DNA of 64,000 bases from a virus: positions 62,001 through 126,000 of IMG/VR virus record IMGVR_UViG_3300032224_001591. One strand, given 5' to 3'. The notes under the pieces were generated by a model, which did not search any database, was not told where the DNA came from, and saw nothing but the letters and a program-made list of their open reading frames with translations. How positions within the stretch are numbered: position 1 is the first letter of the stretch; every line of letters starts with the position of its first letter. A program made the translations under genes and the position numbers. Positions 2-63,258 of this stretch are shown one piece after another.

Positions 2-3000
2 ACTTTAAGTGGAACTTCAGGTTCAACAGGATCTAATGGTTCTTCAGGAGCTGCAGGTCAAAGTGGTTTAAGCGCAACTAGCGGAACAGCAGGTTCTGCT
101 GGTTCTACAGGTTCAAATGGTGCCGCCGGTCAAAGCGGTTTAAGTTCAACATCAGGTTCTTCAGGTACTTCAGGTTCAAACGGATCTACAGGTAATGCTG
201 GAACTTCAGGAAATAGTAATACAGCCGGAACATCCGGTTCAACAGGTTCTACAGGTTCATCAGGTATTGCTGGACAAAGCGGTTTATCAGCAACTAGTGG
301 AACTTCAGGTTCTGCTGGTACAACAGGTTCTTCGGGTGATGCTGGAAATAGTGGAATTAGCGGCACAAATGGTACATCAGGTTCATCAGGAACTTCAGGT
401 TCAACTGGAGCTAGTGGTAATGCGGGTGCTTCAGGAGCTAGTGCATCTTCAGGATCAACCGGTTCAAATGGTAGCTCAGGAGCTGCTGGTTCAAGTGGTT
501 TATCCTCTTTATCCGGTACTTCAGGTTCAACTGGTACTAATGGTTCTTCAGGTATTGCTGGTTTAAGTGGTGCAAGTGAAACTAGTGGTACTGCTGGTAC
601 TTCAGGTTCAACGGGTTCAAATGGTATAGCTGGACAAAGTGGTTTAAGCGCTACTTCAGGAACATCCGGTTCAACAGGTACAAATGGTTCTACAGGTAAT
701 GCTGGAACTTCAGGAAATAGCAATACAGCAGGTAGTTCAGGAACTTCAGGTTCTTCAGGTTCTACAGGTTCAGCAGGTGTTGCTGGACAAAGCGGTTTAA
801 GTGCAACTTCAGGATCTTCAGGTTCAACAGGTACAAGTGGTTCTACAGGTAATGCTGGTAGTGGTGGATTTAGCAATACATCAGGTTCATCAGGTTCATC
901 AGGTACAAGTGGTGAAACCGGTACAAGTGGTACTTCAACATATGCAGCTTCTGGAACTTCAGGTTCTGGAGGTTCATCAGGTACAAGTGGTGAATTAGGT
1001 TCAAATGGAACTTCAAATATATCAAGTACTTCAGGATCTTCAGGATCAAGCGGTACAACAGGTTCAGCAGGTGCAAATGGTCAAAGTGGTGCGAGTGCAT
1101 CTTCAGGCTCTTCAGGTTCAACTGGTTCAAATGGTAGTTCAGGAAACGCAGGTACATCAGGAAATAGCTTTACAAGTGGAACTTCAGGTTCTACAGGATC
1201 TAATGGTTCGGCAGGTATAGCAGGTTTAAGTGCTAATTCTTCAACAAGTGGAACTTCAGGTTCTAGTGGTACAAGCGGTTCAGCCGGAAATGCGGGTCAA
1301 AGTAATTCATCTTCAACTTCAGGTTCTTCTGGTTCTTCTGGTTCTTCAGGATCTGCAGGTTTAGCAGGTGCAAGTGCTGCTTCCGCAACTAGCGGAACTT
1401 CAGGTTCTAGTGGTTCTACAGGTTCAAATGGAGCTAGTGGTCAAAGTGGTTTATCAGGTACTTCAGGTTCATCAGGTTCAACTGGATCAAATGGTTCAAC
1501 TGGTGTGGCTGGTACTAGTGGTAATAGTGAAACTTCAGGAACTTCAGGTTCATCAGGTTCTACCGGTTCAGCAGGTGCGGCAGGTATAAGTGGTTTAAGC
1601 TCAACAGCCGGAACATCAGGTTCATCAGGTTCAAATGGTTCTACTGGTGTCTCAGGCACTAGTGGAAATAGTAATACAGCAGGTACTTCTGGCTCTGCTG
1701 GTACAAATGGTTCTACAGGAGATGCAGGATTAAGTGGCGCTTCCGCTACTAGTGGTACATCAGGTACAACGGGGTCTACTGGTTCAAACGGAGTAGCAGG
1801 TCAAAGTGGTTTATCATTTACTGCAGGTTCATCAGGCTCAGGAGGTTCAAACGGATCTTCAGGTGTTGCTGGTACCTCAGGTACATCTTCAGCAACTAAT
1901 TCAGGAACTTCAGGTTCAAGTGGTTCAAATGGCTCTTCAGGAAACACAGGTTCAAATGGTTTAAGTGCATTAAGCGGAACTTCAGGATCAACAGGTTCAA
2001 ATGGCTCTTCAGGTTTATCAGGTAATAGTGGGTTAAGTGGAACTTCAGGTTCAACGGGTTCATCAGGTTCAAATGGTAACGATGGAGCTAATGGTTTATC
2101 AGCATTAAGTGGTACTTCAGGTACTTCAGGATCAAATGGTTCAAGTGGTAATGCTGGTTCATCAGGTTTAAGTGCATCATCAGGTTCATCAGGTTCAAAT
2201 GGTTCTTCAGGAAATACAGGTTCAAATGGTTTAAGTGCATTAAGTGGTACTTCCGGATCTACTGGTACTAATGGTTCTAGCGGAAATGCAGGTTCAAACG
2301 GTCTATCTGCTTTATCAGGTACTTCAGGTTCAACTGGTTCAAATGGTTCTTCAGGAGCAGCAGGTCAAAGTGGTTTAAGCGCAACTTCAGGAACTTCAGG
2401 TTCTTCAGGTTCAACAGGAGTAGCAGGATCAAGTGGTTTAAGTGCAACCTCAGGTACAACTGGATCAAATGGTTCAAGTGGTGTAGCTGGTTCAAATGGT
2501 TTATCTGCTTTATCAGGTACAGCAGGTTCATCAGGTACAACCGGATCAAGCGGTGTTGCTGGTGCATCAGGGACTAGTTCAACGTCGGGAACTTCAGGTT
2601 CGACTGGTACCACAGGTTCAAATGGAAACGCAGGAGCTAGTGGTTTAAGCGCAACTTCAGGTTCATCAGGTTCAACAGGTTCAAATGGTACAAGCGGTAA
2701 TGCTGGTTCAGCAGGTGCAAGTGCTTTATCTAATACAAGTGGTAGTTCAGGTTCTTCAGGAACATCAGGTTCTACAGGTGCCGCCGGTGCTAGTGGAGCA
2801 AGTGCAACTTCAGGAACATCAGGATCTACAGGATCTAATGGTTCAAATGGAGTAGCAGCTTTAAGTGGTACAGCAGGATCTTCGGGTTCTAATGGTAGTT
2901 CAGGAGAAGCAGGTACATCAGGTACATCTTCAGGCTCTGTTTCAGGTACTTCAGGTTCAGGTGGTTCAAGTGGTACTTCAGGTAATGCTGGTTCTACAGG

Positions 3001-5600
3001 TGCTTCTGCTTTATCAGCAACTTCAGGTTCATCTGGCTCTAGTGGTACAACTGGTTCTTCAGGTATAGCTGGAGGTAGCGGAGCAAGCGCAACTTCAGGT
3101 ACATCAGGAACTACAGGTTCAAATGGTACCTCAGGAAATGCAGGTTCTTCAGGATTATCTGCTTTATCAGGTACATCCGGTTCAACAGGATCAAATGGTT
3201 CAAGTGGTGCAGCAGGCGCAAACGGATCTTCAAATATAAGTGGAACTTCAGGATCTTCAGGTTCTGCCGGTTCAAATGGTAATGCAGGTAATAATGGAGC
3301 TAGTGCAGTAAGCGGAACTTCAGGTTCAACTGGATCTAATGGTTCTAGTGGTATAGCAGGTTCAAATGGTTTATCAGCATTTGCTGGAACTTCAGGTTCA
3401 ACAGGTTCAAACGGATCTACAGGTGTAGCTGGAACTTCAGGAAATAGTAATACAGCCGGAACTTCAGGTTCATCAGGTTCAAATGGTACAAGCGGTAATG
3501 CTGGTTCAGCAGGTGCAAGTGCTTTATCTAATACAAGTGGTAGTTCAGGTTCTTCAGGAACATCAGGTTCTACAGGGGCTGCTGGAGCAAGTGCTGCTTC
3601 TGCTTCTTCAGGAACTTCAGGTTCAAGTGGAACAAGTGGAAATGTAGGTTCAAATGGTTTATCAGCTTTAAGTGGAACTTCAGGCTCAACTGGATCTAAT
3701 GGTTCTAGTGGTGCTGCTGGAGCTTCAGGTTTAAGTGCAACTTCAGGAAGCTCAGGAACTTCAGGTTCAAGTGGTACCACAGGTTCTACCGGAGCTTCAG
3801 GTTCAGGAGCAGCTAGTGGTACATCAGGTACTTCTGGTTCTACTGGTTCTAGTGGTACAGGAGCAAGTGGTACTTCAGGATTAGCAGGTACTTCAGGTAC
3901 ATCAGGCTCAACTGGTTCTTCAGGTGTAGCAGGAGCAAGTGGTTTAAGTCGTTCATCAGGTACTTCAGGATCAACAGGTTCTGCAGGTTCAAATGGTGTT
4001 GATGGAGCTATAGGTTTAAGTGGATTAAGCGGTTCAGCAGGTTCATCAGGTTCTAGTGGTACAACAGGTAACGCTGGTTCTGTAGGAGCAAGTGCAGCAA
4101 GTGCAACTTCAGGTTCTTCAGGTTCTTCAGGATCAACTGGTACTTCAGGTTCAAATGGTAATGCTGGAGCTAGTGGAAATAGTAATACATCAGGAACTTC
4201 AGGTTCTACAGGTACTGTAGGTTCTTCAGGTGCTGCTGGTACTTCAGGCAACGCAGGTTCTTCAGGAGCAAGCTCAACTTCAGGTTCAACTGGTACTTCA
4301 GGTTCTAATGGTGCAAGCGGTAATGCTGCTACAAGTGGTTTAAGTTCAACTTCAGGAAGCTCAGGTACTTCAGGTTCAACTGGTACAACGGGTTCTGCGG
4401 GTGCAGCAGGCGCTTCAGGTGCTAGTGCACTTTCAGGAACTTCAGGTTCATCAGGTTCAAATGGTACAAGTGGTAATGGTGGTTCAAATGGTAATGCTGG
4501 TACTTCAGGTATTTCAAATACTTCAGGATCTTCAGGAACTTCAGGTTCTAGTGGTCTTAATGGTGGAGCAGGAGCTTCAGGTTTAAGTGCAACTTCAGGG
4601 ACATCCGGTTCTTCAGGTTCATCAGGTTCGAATGGTAATGCAGGTGCAAGCGGAACTTCAAATATAAGTGGTACTTCAGGTTCTACAGGTTCAAATGGTA
4701 CATCAGGTAATGCCGGTGCAAATGGAGCTTCTGCAGTTAGTGGAACTTCAGGATCTACAGGTTCTACAGGTTCAAATGGTGCAGCAGGTGGAAATGGAGC
4801 TTCTGCAGTAAGCGGAACTTCAGGTTCAAGTGGTACAACAGGTTCTTCAGGAGCTAATGGCGGTGCTGGTACAAGTGGAATAAGTAATACTGCTGGTACT
4901 TCAGGATCAACTGGTACAAACGGCTCTTCAGGAGCAGCAGGTGCTAGTGGTGTAAGTGGTTTAAGCGGTACTTCAGGTACAACTGGTACTACAGGTTCAA
5001 ATGGTGCGGCTGGTGGAAATGGTATTTCAAATGTAAGCGGAACTTCTGGTTCTTCAGGTTCTACAGGTTCATCAGGTAATGCTGGGGGAAATGGAGCTTC
5101 AGCAGTAAGCGGAACTTCAGGTACATCCGGTTCTAACGGTACCTCAGGTAACGCTGGAGCTAATGGTGTTTCAAACGTATCCGGTACTTCAGGATCTTCA
5201 GGTTCAGCAGGTTCAAATGGCGCTGCTGGTGGAAACGGAGTTTCAAATGTAAGTGGTACTTCAGGTACAACAGGTTCAAACGGTACAAATGGTAATGCAG
5301 GTGCAAATGGAACTTCAAACATATCTGGAACTTCAGGTTCATCAGGTTCTACAGGTTCATCAGGAGCAGCAGGAGGTAATGGAGCTTCAAATATAAGTGG
5401 TACTTCAGGTACAACAGGTTCAACAGGTTCATCTGGTAATGCTGGAGGAAGCGGTACTTCAAATGTATCAGGAACTTCTGGTTCTACGGGTTCAACAGGT
5501 TCCTCAGGTAATGCTGGTGGAAATGGAGCTTCAGCCGTGAGCGGAACTTCAGGTACAACAGGATCTTCAGGATCTTCAGGTGTAAGTGGTGCTAATGGGG
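2..5600 (+). repeat. 72-bp / 24-residue degenerate tandem repeat of Gly-X-Y triplets
   Basis: Consecutive units such as SGTSGSTGSNGSSGAAGQSG followed by LSAT line up every 24 residues. Gly occupies every third position seven times; in the eighth triplet Gly is replaced (ATS, NTA, STA and similar), but the reading phase of three is kept. Codons vary freely (GGT/GGA, TCA/TCT/AGT), so the protein pattern is conserved more than the DNA. Long antisense frames across this region are a by-product of the repeat. Confidence 0.85.
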
Positions 5601-6913
5601 GAAGCGGAACTTCAGGTGTAAGCGGAACTAATGGTTCTAGCGGATCAGCAGGTATAAGCGGTGCAAATGGAGGAAATGGAACTTCAGGTGTAAGTGGTAC
5701 AAACGGAACAAATGGTTCTAATGGTACAAGCGGTGTAAACGGAGTTTCAGGCGCTAGTGGTTCTTCAGGAACTTCAGGTGGAAGTGGTACTTCAGGTACA
5801 ACTGGTTCAAACGGATCTTCAGGTGGAAATGGTGTAGCCGGAGCAAGTGGTGCCAGCGCAACTTCAGGTTCAACTGGTACAAACGGTTCATCAGGTGGAA
5901 ATGGTGTTGCTGGAGGAAGTGGTGTAAGTGCAACTTCAGGTACAACTGGTTCAAACGGATCTTCAGGAAATAATGGTGCTAATGGTGCTAGTGGAGTTTC
6001 AGGTGTAAGTGGAACTAACGGTACAACAGGTTCAAATGGAGCTAATGGTGGTAACGGCGTAAACGGAGCTTCAGGTACTTCAGGTGTAAATGGTACAACA
6101 GGTTCAAACGGAGCTGCAGGTGGTAACGGTGTAAATGGTGCCAATGGTACAAGTGGTGTTAATGGTACAACAGGTTCTAATGGTGCTGCAGGTGGAAATG
6201 GAGCTAATGGTGCTGGAGGTACTTCAGGTGTAAACGGATCTACAGGTTCTAATGGAGCGGCAGGTGCTAGTGGTGTTAATGGTGCTGGAGGTACTTCAGG
6301 TGTAAATGGTACAACAGGTTCAAGTGGTGCTGCTGGTGGTAATGGAGCTAATGGTGCTAATGGTACAAGTGGAGTTAATGGTACAAATGGTACTTCAGGT
6401 GCGGCTGGTACAAGTGGACAATCAATTAATGGTACTTCAGGTATTAGTGGTGGTTCATTTACAAATCAACCAGATTATTTAGTTAGAACAACAAGTGCAA
6501 CACAAGTACAAAGTGTAAGTTTCTTAAAAGCGGATACAACAAACACTAGATTAGGTATTAATAATGCTTCACCGTCATATACATTAGATGTTGGAGGTGA
6601 TATATATGCATCTAATAATGTTATAGCTTATTCTGATGAAAGAGTTAAAGAAAATATTGTAACAATTAGCAATGCTTTAGATAAAGTTAAAAATCTTAGA
6701 GGTGTTAATTATACAAGAAAAGATATTAAAGACAAATCATTACAAATGGGTGTTATTGCACAAGAAGTTCAAAAAGTAATCCCAGAAGTAATATCTGTTA
6801 GAGAATCGGATGGTCATTTAGCTGTAGCCTATGCAAATATAGTTGGTTTATTAATTGAAGCAATAAAAGAACAACAAAAACAAATTGACGAGTTAAAAGT
6901 AAAATTAAAATAA
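2..6913 (+). CDS. Giant collagen-like tail fibre with C-terminal S74 intramolecular chaperone (5' truncated)
   Basis: The frame is open from base 2, so the gene begins left of the window; at least 2303 residues are visible. About 2150 residues are Gly-X-Y triplets rich in Ser, Thr, Asn and Ala, with essentially no proline. For most of the length seven Gly triplets alternate with one Gly-less triplet, giving a 24-residue period; after about 5600 the Gly triplets run with little interruption. The C-terminus (about 6460 on) has a short beta-type segment and then an endosialidase-type S74 chaperone domain with SDERVKEN, MGVIAQEVQKVIPE and a terminal coiled coil. In this family the chaperone trimerises the fibre and cuts itself off before the Ser, here codon 6632. 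Role: trimeric receptor-binding or whisker fibre. A GTG at 1505 is internal, not the start. Confidence 0.9.
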   Translation, partial: TLSGTSGSTGSNGSSGAAGQSGLSATSGTAGSAGSTGSNGAAGQSGLSSTSGSSGTSGSNGSTGNAGTSGNSNTAGTSGSTGSTGSSGIAGQSGLSATSGTSGSAGTTGSSGDAGNSGISGTNGTSGSSGTSGSTGASGNAGASGASASSGSTGSNGSSGAAGSSGLSSLSGTSGSTGTNGSSGIAGLSGASETSGTAGTSGSTGSNGIAGQSGLSATSGTSGSTGTNGSTGNAGTSGNSNTAGSSGTSGSSGSTGSAGVAGQSGLSATSGSSGSTGTSGSTGNAGSGGFSNTSGSSGSSGTSGETGTSGTSTYAASGTSGSGGSSGTSGELGSNGTSNISSTSGSSGSSGTTGSAGANGQSGASASSGSSGSTGSNGSSGNAGTSGNSFTSGTSGSTGSNGSAGIAGLSANSSTSGTSGSSGTSGSAGNAGQSNSSSTSGSSGSSGSSGSAGLAGASAASATSGTSGSSGSTGSNGASGQSGLSGTSGSSGSTGSNGSTGVAGTSGNSETSGTSGSSGSTGSAGAAGISGLSSTAGTSGSSGSNGSTGVSGTSGNSNTAGTSGSAGTNGSTGDAGLSGASATSGTSGTTGSTGSNGVAGQSGLSFTAGSSGSGGSNGSSGVAGTSGTSSATNSGTSGSSGSNGSSGNTGSNGLSALSGTSGSTGSNGSSGLSGNSGLSGTSGSTGSSGSNGNDGANGLSALSGTSGTSGSNGSSGNAGSSGLSASSGSSGSNGSSGNTGSNGLSALSGTSGSTGTNGSSGNAGSNGLSALSGTSGSTGSNGSSGAAGQSGLSATSGTSGSSGSTGVAGSSGLSATSGTTGSNGSSGVAGSNGLSALSGTAGSSGTTGSSGVAGASGTSSTSGTSGSTGTTGSNGNAGASGLSATSGSSGSTGSNGTSGNAGSAGASALSNTSGSSGSSGTSGSTGAAGASGASATSGTSGSTGSNGSNGVAALSGTAGSSGSNGSSGEAGTSGTSSGSVSGTSGSGGSSGTSGNAGSTGASALSATSGSSGSSGTTGSSGIAGGSGASATSGTSGTTGSNGTSGNAGSSGLSALSGTSGSTGSNGSSGAAGANGSSNISGTSGSSGSAGSNGNAGNNGASAVSGTSGSTGSNGSSGIAGSNGLSAFAGTSGSTGSNGSTGVAGTSGNSNTAGTSGSSGSNGTSGNAGSAGASALSNTSGSSGSSGTSGSTGAAGASAASASSGTSGSSGTSGNVGSNGLSALSGTSGSTGSNGSSGAAGASGLSATSGSSGTSGSSGTTGSTGASGSGAASGTSGTSGSTGSSGTGASGTSGLAGTSGTSGSTGSSGVAGASGLSRSSGTSGSTGSAGSNGVDGAIGLSGLSGSAGSSGSSGTTGNAGSVGASAASATSGSSGSSGSTGTSGSNGNAGASGNSNTSGTSGSTGTVGSSGAAGTSGNAGSSGASSTSGSTGTSGSNGASGNAATSGLSSTSGSSGTSGSTGTTGSAGAAGASGASALSGTSGSSGSNGTSGNGGSNGNAGTSGISNTSGSSGTSGSSGLNGGAGASGLSATSGTSGSSGSSGSNGNAGASGTSNISGTSGSTGSNGTSGNAGANGASAVSGTSGSTGSTGSNGAAGGNGASAVSGTSGSSGTTGSSGANGGAGTSGISNTAGTSGSTGTNGSSGAAGASGVSGLSGTSGTTGTTGSNGAAGGNGISNVSGTSGSSGSTGSSGNAGGNGASAVSGTSGTSGSNGTSGNAGANGVSNVSGTSGSSGSAGSNGAAGGNGVSNVSGTSGTTGSNGTNGNAGANGTSNISGTSGSSGSTGSSGAAGGNGASNISGTSGTTGSTGSSGNAGGSGTSNVSGTSGSTGSTGSSGNAGGNGASAVSGTSGTTGSSGSSGVSGANGGSGTSGVSGTNGSSGSAGISGANGGNGTSGVSGTNGTNGSNGTSGVNGVSGASGSSGTSGGSGTSGTTGSNGSSGGNGVAGASGASATSGSTGTNGSSGGNGVAGGSGVSATSGTTGSNGSSGNNGANGASGVSGVSGTNGTTGSNGANGGNGVNGASGTSGVNGTTGSNGAAGGNGVNGANGTSGVNGTTGSNGAAGGNGANGAGGTSGVNGSTGSNGAAGASGVNGAGGTSGVNGTTGSSGAAGGNGANGANGTSGVNGTNGTSGAAGTSGQSINGTSGISGGSFTNQPDYLVRTTSATQVQSVSFLKADTTNTRLGINNASPSYTLDVGGDIYASNNVIAYSDERVKENIVTISNALDKVKNLRGVNYTRKDIKDKSLQMGVIAQEVQKVIPEVISVRESDGHLAVAYANIVGLLIEAIKEQQKQIDELKVKLK

Positions 6914-27812: not shown

Positions 27813-28478
27813 ATGAAAAAACAAATTAACGAAATTAAAAGAATGCAGCATATTGCTGGATTAATCACTGAAAGCGAATACCGTCAATCATTAAATGAAG
27901 AAACTAATGAAGAAACACTTGATGATGTTACTTTTACTTTAGATATGGCATTAAATAATATGTTTCCAATGTATGGATTTAAAGCAGGAGACACAGTTAC
28001 AGGTATTTTACCAGCTGAAGAATTTGCTGATGAAACTAAACGCAATAGTGCTGAGGATTTTCAAGCAGCACAAGCTTACATTAAGAATAAGGGAGGAGAA
28101 ATAAAAATTAATTCAAGTGATCCTTATCTTATGTTTAGAAATATAAACATAACATATAAATTGAAAGATAATGGAGATATTGAATACGCAGTAGAAGTTC
28201 CAGCTAAAAAAATGGACGAAGCTGAAATAAAAGAAGAAGAAAAAGGTCTTCCTTTTTTACTAGCTAAAACATGGTTAAACGAATATAATGGTAATATTCA
28301 ATTTGCGGTCCGTACAGAAGAGATTATAGGTTTTTTATACAATTTAAGAGATAAAGAATTTAAACAATATAAAGGAGAAATTGAACGTATGTACTTACCA
28401 TATAAAAAAGCTAAAGACGCTTTTGAAAAGTTATGGGATGAAGCATCTGTTTTTTCAGATAAAGATCTTAAAGACTAA
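27813..28478 (+). CDS. ITE-leader protein 1 (putative gp21-processed internal head protein)
   Basis: 221 residues. The first 20, MKKQINEIKRMQHIAGLITE, are nearly identical to the start of the gene at 29612 and similar to three others here; the rest is unrelated to those. The leader ends I-T-E, which fits the (L/I)-x-E cleavage rule of the T4 prohead protease gp21. T4 internal proteins IPI-IPIII also have short leaders ending in such a site. The body is acidic (VEVPAKKMDEAEIKEEEKGL) and soluble. I infer packaging into the head, trimming after Glu20 and injection with the DNA. The function of the mature part is unknown. Confidence 0.65.
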   Translation: MKKQINEIKRMQHIAGLITESEYRQSLNEETNEETLDDVTFTLDMALNNMFPMYGFKAGDTVTGILPAEEFADETKRNSAEDFQAAQAYIKNKGGEIKINSSDPYLMFRNINITYKLKDNGDIEYAVEVPAKKMDEAEIKEEEKGLPFLLAKTWLNEYNGNIQFAVRTEEIIGFLYNLRDKEFKQYKGEIERMYLPYKKAKDAFEKLWDEASVFSDKDLKD

Positions 28479-28483
28479 ATAAA

Positions 28484-28554
28484 TAATAAAAACATAAAAC
28501 ATGGCAAACGATTTTAAAAGAATGCAAAAATTAGCAGGTTTAATTACCGAAGCA
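28484..28554 (+). repeat. 71-bp direct repeat, copy 1 (leader and start of an ITE-leader gene)
   Basis: Bases 28484-28554 match 29041-29111 except for one A/G difference. The repeat covers the untranslated leader, the start codon and the leader-peptide codons, then similarity stops. Confidence 0.85.
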
Positions 28555-29043
28555 AAGGCTGAAGTATATTCTTATGAGGCAACTCCGGAAAAACAAGCTT
28601 TATACGATAAAATTGCTACAGAATTAGAAAAACTTATTAAGGATATAGCTTCAAAACTAAAAATTAAACCATCTAACATTAGAATATCATGTGATGGGTT
28701 ATGGGATGATGGAGGTTATAAAAACAGAGGATTAGTAGTTCAAATTAAAGCTAATGATAATACATGGGAAAAACCATGGAAAGGAAATAATAGAATTATC
28801 CAAACCCCAAATAGTGAAGGTATATTAATACACCCCGGAATATCAGGTAATGGAATAGTTGGTCTAAAGTTAGATATGGATAACACGTATAATAAAGAAT
28901 TAGAAACTATTTACAAAAAAGCACGAGAACAAAATTTAGGTAAGTATGTATCCGATTTTAATGTTCAATTAGCAAACTCTCTTACACCACAAGAAATAAA
29001 ATTAATAGCACCAAACACTCCAATAATAGTAACCGGTAAATAA
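28501..29043 (+). CDS. ITE-leader protein 2
   Basis: 180 residues. The leader MANDFKRMQKLAGLITE (17 residues) is identical to that of the next gene; predicted cleavage is after Glu17. The mature part has an N-terminal helix (EKLIKDIASKLKIKPSN), then a beta-rich segment (NIRISCDGLWDDGGYKNRGL) and a C-terminal helix. It has one or two Cys and no membrane segment. I do not recognise the fold. It would be about 163 residues after trimming, in the size range of T4 internal proteins. Confidence 0.65.
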   Translation: MANDFKRMQKLAGLITEAKAEVYSYEATPEKQALYDKIATELEKLIKDIASKLKIKPSNIRISCDGLWDDGGYKNRGLVVQIKANDNTWEKPWKGNNRIIQTPNSEGILIHPGISGNGIVGLKLDMDNTYNKELETIYKKAREQNLGKYVSDFNVQLANSLTPQEIKLIAPNTPIIVTGK

Positions 29044-29111
29044 TAAAAACATAAAACATGGCAAACGATTTTAAAAGAATGCAAAAATTGGCAGGTTTAA
29101 TTACCGAAGCA
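29041..29111 (+). repeat. 71-bp direct repeat, copy 2
   Basis: Second copy of the repeat at 28484. It begins at the stop codon of ITE-leader gene 2 and runs through the leader peptide of gene 3. Confidence 0.85.
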
Positions 29112-29567
29112 CAATCACAAAAATCAAAATATATCCTTACAGATGAAGAGGGTGATGTTTATTTAAACGACGATGCTATCAAATCATATCTTAAATCAGT
29201 AATCAATTCAGAAGAAATTGAATCTGTAAACGATTTTATGAACGATGAAGAAGGATTTGGAGAATCAGCAATGCATTTCTTTAAAGATGGTAGTGAAGAT
29301 ATATCGGATAAAGATGTTGAAGATTGGGCTAAACAAGAAATGAGCTACTATTTATATTCTGAACCTGATGAATTTCCAGGCAAAGAATTAAATGAAAATA
29401 TATCTGATGAAGCTATTGACCGTATGGAAGGTTTAGCTAACACACATCATTTATCAACTTTAAAATTCAGTTTAGAAAACCTAGTTCCAGAATGGATACA
29501 AGATGGAGGATTTGATGAAGATGATGTAATTGATTATTTAACACATTTAGTAAGAAACTCATACTAG
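29058..29567 (+). CDS. ITE-leader protein 3
   Basis: 169 residues with the same 17-residue leader as gene 2, then a wholly different, strongly acidic body (DEEGDVYLNDDAIKSYLKSV, DGSEDISDKDVEDWAKQEM). The C-terminus is acidic and helical. Acidity could make it a DNA mimic or an inhibitor of a DNA-binding host enzyme; that is speculation. It is separated from gene 2 by 14 nt of repeated leader sequence. Confidence 0.65.
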   Translation: MANDFKRMQKLAGLITEAQSQKSKYILTDEEGDVYLNDDAIKSYLKSVINSEEIESVNDFMNDEEGFGESAMHFFKDGSEDISDKDVEDWAKQEMSYYLYSEPDEFPGKELNENISDEAIDRMEGLANTHHLSTLKFSLENLVPEWIQDGGFDEDDVIDYLTHLVRNSY

Positions 29568-29579
29568 TAAAAAAAATCA

Positions 29580-29587
29580 TATATTTA
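29580..29587 (+). promoter_or_regulatory. TATATTTA element upstream of 29612
   Basis: TATATTTA followed by TTATAAAC, 24 nt before the start codon. The expected -33 position (29556-29559) reads AACT, so the -33 box is missing. Confidence 0.4.
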
Positions 29588-29611
29588 TTATAAACATATA
29601 ACTGATAAAAC

Positions 29612-30121
29612 ATGAAAAAACAAATTAACGAAATCAAAAGAATGCAACTTATCGCTGGTTTAATTACTGAAAGTGAATATCAAGAGTCAATGACTAAAAT
29701 AGACGAATCTAAAGATATTAACCAAACCCTAACATCAGGAGGTTTTGATCCTATCGATGATGAAAAATTATTGATGAAAGCATCAAAAATTCTATCTTTA
29801 ATAGGTGGTAATCCAAGTGCAGAAGCAGTTAATGCTCTTGTTATGGTTATTGAAGATGCTGAAGGTGGAAATATATCTTGGAATGAATCAATGAACGAAG
29901 CTGAAGATACTTTATCATCATTTAAATCATTAGATCAAATGAATGATTATCTTGAAAAAGGTGGTTGGGATCCATATGAAGTAGCAGATGAAAAAGCAGA
30001 AAAAAAAGGTTTAATGTTAATCAACAAATATATTAAATCTAATATTTTAGATAAAGGAAAAACTTTATCCCCAAATAAATTAAATGCTTTGTTAATAAAA
30101 ATCGAAGATTTACTTCCTTAA
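29612..30121 (+). CDS. ITE-leader protein 4
   Basis: 169 residues. The leader MKKQINEIKRMQLIAGLITE differs from protein 1 at one residue (Leu13 for His), and SEYQES continues the similarity; predicted cleavage is after Glu20. The body is acidic with helical segments (KASKILSLIGGNPSAEAVNA, LDQMNDYLEKGGWDPYEVAD). Function unknown. A strong terminator follows, closing the ITE-leader block. Confidence 0.65.
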   Translation: MKKQINEIKRMQLIAGLITESEYQESMTKIDESKDINQTLTSGGFDPIDDEKLLMKASKILSLIGGNPSAEAVNALVMVIEDAEGGNISWNESMNEAEDTLSSFKSLDQMNDYLEKGGWDPYEVADEKAEKKGLMLINKYIKSNILDKGKTLSPNKLNALLIKIEDLLP

Positions 30122-30151
30122 TAAAACATAATTAAAATAAAAATTTAAATT

Positions 30152-30177
30152 AAGCTTGGGAAACCAAGCTTTTTTTA
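30152..30177 (+). terminator. Rho-independent terminator after ITE-leader gene 4
   Basis: AAGCTTGG (30152-30159), a GAAA loop, CCAAGCTT (30164-30171), then T to about 30176. GAAA is a stable tetraloop. Confidence 0.9.
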
Positions 30178-30204
30178 TTATCGTTATCGGAGACAATAGA
30201 GGTT

Positions 30205-31485
30205 ATGGCATTTTACTTAATAGAAAATACGGAACAATTATCAACGTTTTATTACCAAGAGTTCAAACGAGCTTTTGTAGAAGTAATTCCGTTTAATGAT
30301 TTAGTACACCCAACCTTAAATAAAGTATCATTAGTGTATATTAAACCCTTAACGGATGATAACGAAAAAGGTTACATGATATGCATTGACCATAGTGAAG
30401 CATTAAACGTGCAAATAAAACACGTAAATCAAGTACTTAAAAGCTTTGACGAAATATATGTTAGAGACAAGAAAACGTTTTTATACTACTTTCAACTTAA
30501 AAGCAGCTTAGACATTACCCACACCACTCCTACGTATATACACCCCACAACGCAAGTCCACACACATTTTTATAATACGTATTCTTCGCGACTTGATATA
30601 AACCGCATTATACCGCTAGTTAAACACTACCAACGTTGTGAAGCCATATTTGAACAAGTAAAAGATCATTGTGTAACCTTAACTAGTAAAACAAATGATG
30701 TCTTAGCATATTCATTTCTATTTATTGAAAAAAACGGCATCAAAATAGATGAAACATTATTTAAACAATACTTTAAACCTACAAATGAGTCATTTAGCAT
30801 TAAAGACGGTAAGATTTATACACAATATAACTTACATACTACAACCGGACGCCCCTCAAATAGTTTTAACGGCGTTAATTTCGCGGCTCTAAACAAAGAC
30901 AACGGCTGCCGACAAGCATTCATACCGGAACATGATCGATTTATGGAAATCGATATTTCCGCCTATCACCCAAATATAGTAGCGCAACTTGTTGATTATC
31001 GGTTTGATAAACCGATTTACGAGGCATTTGCCGAATATGCTGGTGTTGAAATAAAGCAAGCGAAGGAATTGATGTTTAAACAACTATACGGAGGAATATA
31101 TACGGAATATAAACAATGGGAGTTTTTCATTAAAGTACAGGAATATATAGATAAAATCTGGGAACATTTTGAAACGCTTAATTGGGTTATGGTTCCGAAT
31201 TCGGGTAAGTATTTTTATAAGGATAGATTGGGTGAAATGAATCCGCAAAAGTTGTTTAATTATTTTTTACAAAATTTGGAGACCGTAAATAACAGTCGTA
31301 TCATTCAGGATATAATTAAGGTTTTAAGAGGTAAAAATACAAAGTTGGTTCTTTATACTTACGATGCGTTCCTGTTTGACTTAGATGATACGGAAAAAGA
31401 TATTATTGACGAATTAAAAGAGATATTCAGTTCCAGGGAACTGCAAATAAAATATAAATATGGAACAGATTACGACTTTGAATAA
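30205..31485 (+). CDS. Family A DNA polymerase-like protein (palm/fingers only)
   Basis: 426 residues, shorter than Pol I (about 600 without the 5' nuclease). The C-terminal half shows the Pol A signature: TTTGRPSNSFNGVNFAALNK before motif A, EIDISAYHPNIVAQL as motif A with its Asp, KELMFKQLYGGIY as motif B, and LYTYDAFLFDLDD as motif C, where canonical HDE is replaced by YDA. The N-terminal 200 residues show no clear exonuclease motifs. The main replicase here is family B (57931), so this second polymerase-like protein may do gap filling, repair or a non-replicative job. Its C-rich codons differ somewhat from its neighbours. It follows a terminator; I see no clear promoter. Confidence 0.7.
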   Translation: MAFYLIENTEQLSTFYYQEFKRAFVEVIPFNDLVHPTLNKVSLVYIKPLTDDNEKGYMICIDHSEALNVQIKHVNQVLKSFDEIYVRDKKTFLYYFQLKSSLDITHTTPTYIHPTTQVHTHFYNTYSSRLDINRIIPLVKHYQRCEAIFEQVKDHCVTLTSKTNDVLAYSFLFIEKNGIKIDETLFKQYFKPTNESFSIKDGKIYTQYNLHTTTGRPSNSFNGVNFAALNKDNGCRQAFIPEHDRFMEIDISAYHPNIVAQLVDYRFDKPIYEAFAEYAGVEIKQAKELMFKQLYGGIYTEYKQWEFFIKVQEYIDKIWEHFETLNWVMVPNSGKYFYKDRLGEMNPQKLFNYFLQNLETVNNSRIIQDIIKVLRGKNTKLVLYTYDAFLFDLDDTEKDIIDELKEIFSSRELQIKYKYGTDYDFE

Positions 31486-31933
31486 GCAGCGTAATATTTA
31501 TTGGGAGAATCTAAACGAAAGTTTTAACCTATTAAATATTACAGAATTGAATAATAGATTATTTTGTAGCTTTACTACCTTAGATGGCATCGATCCATTA
31601 GTAGAGAGTATAACAAATTCATATACGATAATGTACAACAAAATGTTTGTACTTTATATTAAGAGTACTGATGAGTACGTAGTTACATATAACGTTGAGC
31701 AAGGCAATGTTAGTGATATTCCTGACAATACTATATTGGTTCACAGGAAAAAGGAAAGCAATACATTATATACAATCAATGCGTTAAACGAGTTGATTAA
31801 AAAATTAAATGGTGGTGTTGTTAATCCTAAATTTATTATTGATTGGCAACATTATAGAAATTGTGTGTTGTTAACCAATCATAACGAGTTGAAACAATTG
31901 AATACTAAGATTTACAAGATAGTAGAGCTATAA
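31460..31933 (+). CDS. Unknown protein overlapping the Pol A-like gene
   Basis: 157 residues, overlapping the end of the polymerase-like gene by 26 nt in another frame, so probably co-translated with it. No motif, signal peptide or membrane segment recognised. The overlap suggests a partner or accessory to the upstream protein. Confidence 0.5.
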   Translation: MEQITTLNKQRNIYWENLNESFNLLNITELNNRLFCSFTTLDGIDPLVESITNSYTIMYNKMFVLYIKSTDEYVVTYNVEQGNVSDIPDNTILVHRKKESNTLYTINALNELIKKLNGGVVNPKFIIDWQHYRNCVLLTNHNELKQLNTKIYKIVEL

Positions 31934-31943
31934 TATTTATACC
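31931..31943 (+). promoter_or_regulatory. TATTTATA-class element upstream of 31960
   Basis: TAATATTTATACC, 16 nt before the start codon of ITE-leader protein 5. It overlaps the stop codon of the preceding gene. Confidence 0.5.
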
Positions 31944-31959
31944 GTACAAATAGAACACG

Positions 31960-32526
31960 ATGAACGAGTTTAAAAAAATGCAAAAATTGGCTGGTATTAT
32001 TACCGAGTCTCAATTAAACGAAGCTGAATTAGAAAATTATATGTTCTTTTCAAATTTAAAACAAATGAAAAGACAAATTGAAATGATGATGGAGATGGAT
32101 CCTGTTATGATTGATAGTATTCTTCAAAATGGCCATGATTGGGCTGACGATCATATTTCTGAAGCAAAAACTAATATGGATCAAGTATTTGATTTTTTAA
32201 AAAATGAAATGGATAAAAGTTATCCATTAAACGAAGAAGTATATGGTGGTCAATCCGTAGATAGAGGTGAAACTGGATCTTCAATTGAATTTGAAGTAAA
32301 AGAAAACACACCAGAATATTATACAATTGATTATACTATTACTCCTAATTCAAAATATTCATCTAGATCTGCTGCTAGAAATTATGTACGTACTAAAAAA
32401 AGCGGAACAGCACGAATTAAAAAAAATTACGATTCATCTCAAAAAGAATGGATAACAGTAGAAGGCGATAGTTTTCTCGTAGGTAAACAGTTCGCAAAAG
32501 AAATATTCGGCGATAAAATGGATTAA
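31960..32526 (+). CDS. ITE-leader protein 5
   Basis: 188 residues. The leader MNEFKKMQKLAGIITE (16 residues) is a diverged form of the shared leader and again ends I-T-E before SQLNEAELE. The body has a Met-rich helix (KQMKRQIEMMMEMDPVMIDS) and a basic C-terminal part with TKKSGTARIKKNYDSS. It has its own TATTTATA element, so it is expressed separately from the other four. Fate and role are inferred as for protein 1. Confidence 0.65.
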   Translation: MNEFKKMQKLAGIITESQLNEAELENYMFFSNLKQMKRQIEMMMEMDPVMIDSILQNGHDWADDHISEAKTNMDQVFDFLKNEMDKSYPLNEEVYGGQSVDRGETGSSIEFEVKENTPEYYTIDYTITPNSKYSSRSAARNYVRTKKSGTARIKKNYDSSQKEWITVEGDSFLVGKQFAKEIFGDKMD

Positions 32527-61340: not shown

Positions 61341-61631
61341 ATGAAATTACAAGCAGTTTACAATGCAATTATTGTAAAGCCCTTCGATGAAGAGGAAACA
61401 ATGTACGGAAACATTATCGTTCCAGATTTAGGAAAAGAAAGAAATTTAAGCGGCACTATTGTGTCTGTAGGACCTGGTCAACATTCCATCTCAGGTGAAC
61501 TTTTACCTACATTATTAAAAGTAGGTCAAAAAGTTATTTTACCCCAAATGGGACCTGTAAAAGTAGAACATGATGGTATTGAATATTATGTGTGCCCAGA
61601 AAACCAAGTATTGGCAATTATAAACGATTAA
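61341..61631 (+). CDS. groES: Co-chaperonin GroES
   Basis: 96 residues, GroES size (97), shorter than T4 gp31 (111). YNAIIVKPFDEEETMYGNII, GTIVSVGPGQ and KVILPQMGPVKVEHDGIEYY show the mobile-loop and core. It caps GroEL. The next gene is a full groEL, so it probably pairs with the phage chaperonin and perhaps the host one. Confidence 0.88.
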   Translation: MKLQAVYNAIIVKPFDEEETMYGNIIVPDLGKERNLSGTIVSVGPGQHSISGELLPTLLKVGQKVILPQMGPVKVEHDGIEYYVCPENQVLAIIND

Positions 61632-61641
61632 AATAAGTTAT

Positions 61642-63258
61642 ATGAGTAAAATTATAGAATTCGGCCCAGAAGCCCGTAGAAAGTTATCTAGTGGTGTTGA
61701 CAAATTGTCAAACGCAGTAACCGCAACTTTAGGTCCTAATGGACGTAACGTTGTTATTTCAAAACCAGGTGAATACCCTCAATCAACTAAAGATGGTGTT
61801 ACAGTAGCTAAAGCTATTACCTTAGAAGATCCAATTGAAGAATTAGGTGTTCAAATGGTTAAACAAGCAGCTATCAAAACTGCAGAAACAGCAGGTGATG
61901 GTACTACAACATCTACTTTATTAGCACAAGAAATGGTTAAACAAGGTTTAACTTATTTAAACAATGGAGCTAACGCTGTAGAAATTAAACGTAGTATTGA
62001 TGTTGCTGTTAGAGATGTTTTAAAACATATTCGTGAAGAAATTAAAGAAAATATTTCATCTGAAGATCAATTAAAACAAGTAGCATCCATTTCAGCTAAC
62101 AATGATCCAGCAATTGGAGAATTGATTGCAACGGCAATGCAAAAAGTAGGACGTGAAGGTGTTGTTCACATTGAAGAATCAAAATCAGGTGAAACGTATC
62201 TTGAAACAGTAGAAGGTATGCAATTTGATCGTGGTTATAAATCACCTTACTTTGTTACTGATAACAATACAATGTCTAGTACTTTAAATGATATTTTAGT
62301 TCTTATCTTAGATAAAAAAATTACTCAAGTAAAAGAATTATTACCTATTTTAGAAACAGTATCTGCTCAAAATAAATCATTATTGATTGTAGCTGAAGAT
62401 ATTGATGGTGAAGCATTAGCAACGTTGATCGTAAATAAAGCAAGAGGTATTTTAAAAGTATGTGCTGTTAAAGCTCCTGATTTTGGTGATCGTCGTAAAT
62501 TAATTCTTGAAGATTTAGCTATTTTAACAGGTGGTCAAGTAGTTAGTTCTGAAAAAGGAATGAAATTAGATCGTTTTAATACTGATTGGTTTGGTAAAGC
62601 TAGAGTAGCTACCATTGATAAAGACAATACAACTATTGTTGATGGTAAAGGTGAAGAAACAGCAATTAATCAACGAATTGAAGAATTACAAATCCAAATT
62701 GAAAATGCAAAATCACCATTTGAACAAGAAAAATTACAAGAACGTTTAGCTAAATTCATTGGCGGTGTAGCAATTATTCACGTTGGTGGAAACACTGAAA
62801 CTGAAATGAAAGAAACTAAAGATCGTGTTGACGATGCTTTACACGCTACAAAAGCAGCAATTGAAGAAGGTATTGTACCCGGTGGTGGAGTTACATTATT
62901 ACACGCACGTAACGGTATTAATAACCGCGATACTATTGGTTCTAAAATCGTTTGGAATGCTTGTGCTGCTCCATTTAAGAAAATACTTGAAAACGCAGGT
63001 TACGAACCTGAAAATGTTTACAATGCTATCAATGCCGTTACAGGTGGTGATTATTGGTTCGGATGGGATTTAAAAGCAGAAACATTTACTGATATGAAAG
63101 AAGCAGGAATTATTGATCCAGCCAAAGTAACACGTTGCGCTTTAGAAAATGCAGCATCCGTAGCAGGAACAATTTTATTAACAGAATGTACTGTTGTTGA
63201 CAAACCTGAAGAAAAGAAAGACCAACAAGGATTTGGAGACATGGGAGGAATGTATTAG
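61642..63258 (+). CDS. groEL: Chaperonin GroEL
   Basis: 538 residues (548 in E. coli). ATP-site residues are intact: TLGPNGRNVVI, the GDGTTT loop with its Asp, and VDDALHATKAAIEEGIVPGG containing the hydrolysis Asp. The apical domain has VEGMQFDRGYKSPYFV. It keeps a GGM-like tail (GFGDMGGMY), so the protein is not a fragment. In T4-like phages normally only the co-chaperonin is encoded; here a full pair is. Confidence 0.95.
   Translation: MSKIIEFGPEARRKLSSGVDKLSNAVTATLGPNGRNVVISKPGEYPQSTKDGVTVAKAITLEDPIEELGVQMVKQAAIKTAETAGDGTTTSTLLAQEMVKQGLTYLNNGANAVEIKRSIDVAVRDVLKHIREEIKENISSEDQLKQVASISANNDPAIGELIATAMQKVGREGVVHIEESKSGETYLETVEGMQFDRGYKSPYFVTDNNTMSSTLNDILVLILDKKITQVKELLPILETVSAQNKSLLIVAEDIDGEALATLIVNKARGILKVCAVKAPDFGDRRKLILEDLAILTGGQVVSSEKGMKLDRFNTDWFGKARVATIDKDNTTIVDGKGEETAINQRIEELQIQIENAKSPFEQEKLQERLAKFIGGVAIIHVGGNTETEMKETKDRVDDALHATKAAIEEGIVPGGGVTLLHARNGINNRDTIGSKIVWNACAAPFKKILENAGYEPENVYNAINAVTGGDYWFGWDLKAETFTDMKEAGIIDPAKVTRCALENAASVAGTILLTECTVVDKPEEKKDQQGFGDMGGMY

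Follow-up and report, generated by a model that had tools for sequence, protein, structure and literature searches.

Leader-bearing genes in the window

The window analysed here, 64,000 nucleotides long, corresponds to positions 62001-126000 of a virus record of 147,248 bases. Five open reading frames on its plus strand open with the same leader of 16-20 residues (KRMQKLAGLITE type), each time on a different body, and all five were found where an earlier sequence-only reading of this DNA had placed them. In its DNA form, the leader motif occurs five times in the window and never in 100 dinucleotide shuffles.

The first leader (MKKQINEIKRMQHIAGLITE, 27813-27872) has a predicted cut before SEY and precedes putative cargo body 1 (27873-28478), which is 201 aa long with a net charge of -14. 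The second (MANDFKRMQKLAGLITE, 28501-28551), with a predicted cut before AKA, stands on cargo body 2 (28552-29043; 163 aa, net charge +3), where there is no other [LI]xE site. The same peptide (MANDFKRMQKLAGLITE) recurs at 29058-29108 with a predicted cut before AQS, followed by cargo body 3 (29109-29567; 152 aa, net charge -28), which has an internal LNE|N at residue 113. The fourth leader (MKKQINEIKRMQLIAGLITE, 29612-29671) would again be cut before SEY and leads into cargo body 4 (29672-30121; 149 aa, net charge -12). In the fifth (MNEFKKMQKLAGIITE, 31960-32007) the predicted cut before SQL is followed five residues on by a second site, LNE|A; cargo body 5 (32008-32526; 172 aa, net charge -10) contains ISE|A at residue 68 and LNE|E at residue 92. 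The predicted cuts thus yield SEY, AKA, AQS, SEY and SQL, in agreement with the new N-termini expected earlier. The description of three bodies as strongly acidic has to be revised, given that the mature charges make four of the five net negative and one strongly acidic.

Two further leader-bearing reading frames lie outside the window (G000:28192-28938, with LAGIKLNE|A, and G000:30861-32336), for a total of seven in the genome. The family further includes the C-terminus of the scaffold-position protein described below. Leader copies differ from one another by synonymous codon changes, which indicates that the leader is conserved and selected at the protein level.

Leader duplication and possible module shuffling

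The five proteins had been said to share nothing beyond their starts. This is nearly right for the proteins, and the bodies at 28501 and 29058 are indeed unrelated, but two pairs of genes share longer stretches of DNA. The genes at 28501 and 29058 have 75 bp in common at 99% identity (28480-28554), of which 21 bp lie before the start; this 5' flank (28480-28500, plus strand) is identical to 29037-29057 and was duplicated along with the leader. The genes at 27813 and 29612 have 113 bp in common at 78% identity (29586-29698 in the second). Near-identical leader and upstream DNA on unrelated bodies argues that the leader moves as a cassette.

Bodies, too, recur in new combinations. In the sister contig L406 one reading frame with a single leader contains the 27813 body fused to that of 29058, and in contig L196 the last module of the 29058 body (after LNE|N) sits directly behind a leader. 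This suggests, from sequence comparison, that leader bodies are shuffled modules, some of them parted by protease sites. The first domain of cargo body 1 was found again behind leaders in L406, L035, L111 and L102.

Head gene cluster and putative scaffold tail

The genome has a T4-like head cluster in which terminase (phrog_2, 2.2e-52), gp20-type portal (phrog_213, 9.1e-60), S77 protease (gp21) and Gp23 capsid (9.6e-74) genes lie together. The gp21 homologue that the sequence-only reading had left to be found is this S77 protease (E value 4.8e-29). Among isolates, Flavobacterium phage immuto has the most similar capsid (55%), followed by Microcystis phage Mel-JY01 (49%). A Bacteroidota host is likely for the genome.

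Between the protease and capsid genes, in the position of the gp22 scaffold, is an acidic reading frame (G000:49783-50925). It ends in the 16 residues VNAAFERMQKLAGIKK, with IIE just before them, so that in this genome the same peptide forms the N-terminus of the leader proteins and the C-terminus of the scaffold-position protein. The latter matches no known scaffold family among the PHROG profiles; we regard it as a putative gp22-type scaffold from its gene position, its composition and its relatives, whose scaffold-position proteins have a median D+E fraction of 0.28. The scaffold tails of the two isolates are similar (SRWQKLAGIIK in immuto, ERMKKLAGIVK in Mel-JY01).

The tail form AFxRM..LAG was also searched for in IMG/VR with its position within the protein left free, and at least 119 matches were listed. 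In all 119 listed (62 of 62 distinct sequences) the protein ends no more than five residues further on. Among the matches listed, the tail-form gene is followed within 700 nt by a gp23 homologue in all 115 cases where the DNA extends far enough; an S77 protease precedes it by no more than 2.5 kb in 89 of 91.

Related tails occur in more distant T4-like phages, including RM378 (DLERIKRLAGL), Vibrio phage 2.275.O (DLDRLTKIAGIRK) and LR756508 (SRMQKLADIS), where the scaffold tail is the sole motif match. RMQ-type leaders were found in none of T4, Syn33, RM378, HTVC008M, Vibrio 2.275.O, LR756511 and Mel-JY01, and T4 has no RMQ..LAG site. The presence of the tail in phages in which no such leader was found (Mel-JY01, RM378 and Vibrio 2.275.O) points to a function of its own for the tail and to a lineage-specific use as leader. 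Since these phages include distant ones, the scaffold tail probably predates the leaders made from it.

Predicted protease sites beside the motif

The pattern of a first IMG/VR scan demanded a Glu, and for this reason the main leader statistics come from a second scan that asked for nothing after LAG. Among the 120 distinct matches listed from it, 108 have an [LI]xE, against a background of 7.5% per 9-residue window; IMG/VR contigs are related to one another and the counts are of matches listed, so the small binomial P values for leader and site counts overstate their significance. The site stands at the standard spacing in 87 of these matches and is shifted in 21 (e.g., LAGIQLNE, LAGISALNE and LAGINE). 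The [LI]xE is thus kept through changes of spacing, as a protease site predicts. The remaining matches listed comprise six with [VM]xE and six with none in range, three of which are C-terminal tails.

In scaffolds the site lies on the opposite side, upstream of the peptide rather than downstream as in the leaders. An [LI]xE occurs within 12 residues upstream of the tail motif in 89 of the 91 distinct tails listed (background 36%), in the form I[VIL]E and mostly as IVE (65) or IIE (23). Sites also tend to occur at the junctions of non-scaffold proteins in which the motif is C-terminal or internal.

Within the cargo bodies, [LI]xE is depleted (188 observed vs 237 expected, z = -3.7), whereas Ex[LI] and [LI]xD are not. 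Given that [LI]xxE is mildly depleted as well (ratio 0.86), composition or helix phase may account for part of this effect. The exception is LNE, which is enriched 5-fold in the bodies. Neither the depletion of [LI]xE nor the enrichment of LNE is seen in replication and tail proteins.

Distribution of the leader

None of 84,980 bacterial and archaeal genomes contains the leader pattern. In 20 motif-bearing records there are one to five copies each, on the same strand within each record, and a reversed control pattern has no occurrence in these 20. An S77 protease was found in 16 of the 22 leader-bearing records tested, and every record longer than 103 kb has exactly one (9/9, this genome included). 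The six records in which no such protease was found are all about 102 kb or shorter, and may for that reason be fragments.

Among isolates, immuto has two leader proteins (KNV73_gp230 and gp083) in addition to the scaffold tail. In contigs L447 and L429 leader genes immediately follow the protease gene, but these are examples and not a rule, as a leader gene just upstream of the scaffold gene was seen at 2 of 79 loci. In some relatives the tag is located at the C-terminus of the protein or internally.

Putative cargo bodies

At least 253 leader proteins were gathered from IMG/VR, immuto and this genome, and the bodies of the 253 listed fall into 147 clusters, 115 of which are singletons. Cluster representatives are acidic in 53% of cases and basic in 1%. 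Searches of 131 leader proteins against Pfam, PHROGs, NCBIfam and PADLOC returned few matches. In the window, cargo body 1 has no Pfam or PHROG match and profile search gave no significant family match for cargo body 4. In an AF2 model of the 27813 protein (mean pLDDT 62.7), residues 2-14 form a helix, with a break ahead of the predicted cut site, both at modest confidence; the model has no significant match in the PDB.

Leader proteins of four relatives (L203, L238, L170 and L103) match the anti-CBASS protein Acb1 around the family cut-off. For Pfam PF23474, L238 scores 27.7 bits against a cut-off of 27 and L203 falls just under it at 26.8. Both HxT motifs (HCT and HMT) are present in the Acb1-like leader proteins. 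The AF2 model of the Acb1-like cargo reaches a pLDDT of 32 and does not confirm the assignment, and a PDB sequence search gave no match. This protein, found in relatives, is the only pointer to an anti-defence function of the cargo.

Proposed mechanism and alternatives

We consider it likely that the leader is a capsid-targeting peptide, identical to the tail of a gp22-type scaffold and removed by a gp21-type protease; judging from sequence comparison, we give this a probability of about 0.83. A capsid-loading leader with a gp21-type cut after I-T-E had been proposed for this locus, and the proposal now draws support from the protease, the scaffold C-terminus, the retained [LI]xE and the site-poor bodies.

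We infer docking, packaging, cleavage, ejection and an anti-host function as follows. During assembly, the FxRMQKLAG tail of the scaffold would dock on a partner inside the prohead, and cargo bearing the peptide (N-terminally or, in some relatives, C-terminally or within the protein) would dock in the same way and enter the core. The S77 protease would cut after [LI]xE between docking peptide and body, in scaffold and cargo alike. This cut would free the scaffold for removal, and the mature cargo would stay with the DNA and be delivered at infection; delivery into the host is assumed by analogy with T4. The shell is the most likely docking partner by a second analogy, since the scaffold tail of herpesviruses binds their major capsid protein. 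We would give the inner surface of the gp23 shell roughly even odds, a core or scaffold partner a smaller share and the protease the smallest.

A wider version of this scheme is conceivable, and we advance it tentatively. The scaffold tail could be a position-independent address tag with [LI]xE-marked junctions that serves the modular loading of fast-exchanged, partly polyprotein effectors split at LNE, anti-CBASS enzymes among them. The T4 capsid-targeting sequence (CTS) would then be the counterpart of the gp22 tail (VYAKVASRF).

The leader proteins might instead serve in the core or in assembly, as analogues of gp67 and gp68 or as accessory scaffolds, and be broken down and lost from the head without delivery to the host. 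The leader genes next to the L447 and L429 protease genes, the internal LNE sites of several bodies and the acidity of most bodies would all suit such a role. However, the extreme turnover of the bodies, with 147 clusters listed, is unlike that of core proteins, and the overall depletion of [LI]xE and the Acb1-like body also count against it, so we consider it unlikely. Another reading is that the motif serves to recruit the protease, as an exosite tag by which scaffold tail and leaders would attach to the S77 protease and not to the shell. It would suit the [LI]xE site next to nearly every motif and the position of the scaffold gene, as well as of some leader genes, near the protease gene. 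We think this reading quite improbable, given that the major capsid precursor, a protease substrate by position, has neither leader nor tail motif and that T4 gp21 needs few determinants for cutting (PMC9026906). That the leader is a mere mobile 5' cassette, providing a translation start and a harmless N-terminus and spread by recombination with no packaging role, would fit the 75 bp shared by 28501 and 29058 with its upstream 21 bp, but is very hard to reconcile with the synonymous codon changes, the opposite end of the protein on which the peptide stands in scaffolds and the [LI]xE kept through spacing shifts.

If the leader is indeed a capsid-targeting peptide copied from the scaffold tail, it would explain how the phage chooses which proteins to pack in its head. 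It would also supply a rule by which virion cargo could be predicted from sequence in many uncultured phages. The cargos, mostly unannotated, would be a likely source of functions that act early in host takeover or against host defence.

Relation to known systems

T4 gp21 cuts after L/I-x-E, and the CTS propeptides of T4, 10-19 residues long, end in such a site (PMC9026906). The leaders of the window resemble them in their 16-20 residues, their unrelated bodies and their [LI]xE end (5/5). As here, the T4 proteins IPI, IPII, IPIII and Alt combine a short N-terminal propeptide, L/I-x-E and an S77 protease, and internal proteins have unrelated bodies, with related phages swapping cargo (PMC9026906). 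The systems differ in the sequence of the peptide, which here is that of the scaffold C-terminus, in the cargo, which is basic in T4 and mostly acidic here, and in the C-terminal or internal tags of some relatives. With the T4 CTS MKTYQEFIAE the leader has only a loose Y/M-Q-x-F/L spacing in common. For lack of sequence kinship, we propose that the leader works like the T4 CTS but do not call the two homologous. A 2023 review notes that the CTS is not conserved in other T4 core proteins and calls the mechanism of their localisation mysterious (PMC9958956); if cargo leaders copy the scaffold tail, the selection of T4-type core proteins becomes directly testable.

A literature search, with subscription papers mostly outside its reach, found no mention of the leader peptide itself and no description of a cargo tag identical to a scaffold tail. 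The C-terminal end of the herpesvirus scaffold binds the major capsid protein, according to the part of PMC8539031 that was available. It too is the end of an internal scaffold (the scaffold/protease tail), in a related capsid lineage, but the available part does not mention the tail serving a second time to label many cargos, and shell binding in the present phage would hold by analogy. In the giant Salmonella phage SPN3US many proteins are packaged in the head and several are cut by the prohead protease gp245 during head assembly; this is a different giant-phage head system, and the available parts of the sources report no scaffold-tail identity (PMC5694885, PMC7411985, PMC10052503). Engineered P22 particles likewise load foreign cargo through the C-terminal docking region of the scaffold (PMC9962691). 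The P22 system is engineered and relies on a long scaffold segment with no protease release step, whereas the peptide described here has about 12 residues, is natural and is apparently removable. If its function is as proposed, the tag would offer a compact and natural signal with which engineered particles could be loaded.

The capsid precursors of the three phages have candidate cut sites at matching positions, namely QLVSE|V in this phage, QIVSE|A in immuto and QLISE|A in Mel-JY01. The V-S-E of the candidate site in this phage departs slightly from the L/I-x-E rule of T4.

Other leader classes

A second class of short leaders, again ending in [LI]xE, was observed outside the window at G000:24478-39177 (stretch L008 of the phage genome). 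Its members, with a slash after the glutamate, are MIKLLDLLRE/N, MVKLIHLLTE/A, MIKLSKILNE/A, MMIKLLKILKE/A, which heads a P-loop kinase of the Zeta-toxin family, and MRTSLVNLLKE/S. N-terminal [LI]xE sites are enriched in this region, where they occur in 18 of 27 ORFs against a background of 17%; the replication region, taken for comparison, has them in 3 of 40. The second-class leader of the ORF at G000 38450 is retained in its orthologue in Flavobacterium phage immuto, an isolate relative.

Immuto has an additional recurrent leader, MENFDLKKFLVENKLT...L-x-E, on four different proteins (stretch L133, 1803; stretch L135, 5807, 19632 and 20633). The ORF between the protease and scaffold genes starts with MENNFDIHKWQAKFLKE, which is similar to this leader.

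Two ORFs break up the leader island. One (window 30205-31485) has a weak match to DNA polymerase A (Pfam E 3.1e-4, below the cut-off), and the other (window 31460-31933) lacks the leader, yet has LNE in its start.

Peptides shared among head and other proteins

Two proteins encoded at G000:47481-48113 and G000:50962-52689, one of them the capsid protein (SEVSSTGTGAFFTPGQGEQ) and the other a different head-cluster protein (KEVSATGTGASFTPGSGEQ), have a peptide in common. SEVSSTGTGAFFTPGQGEQ is likely the mature N-terminus of the capsid protein; in the non-capsid protein the peptide also lies immediately after a Glu site, and the common peptide is possibly a second shared head module.

In three of the compared stretches (L046, L048 and L069), a 319-aa non-scaffold protein, encoded upstream of a clamp-loader-like gene, ends in the scaffold's proposed docking peptide, here in the form DLYRM(K/Q/R)KLAGL-COOH.

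Other ORFs in the window

The N-termini of the ORFs at window 61341-61631 and 61642-63258 resemble GroES and GroEL, and the annotated GroES and GroEL genes of immuto are in the same order. A very long repetitive ORF of the G-T-S-G type (1802 aa) occupies window 1505-6913 (+); opposite it, at window 2365-6144 (-), runs an open frame of 1259 aa, probably a mirror of the repeat.
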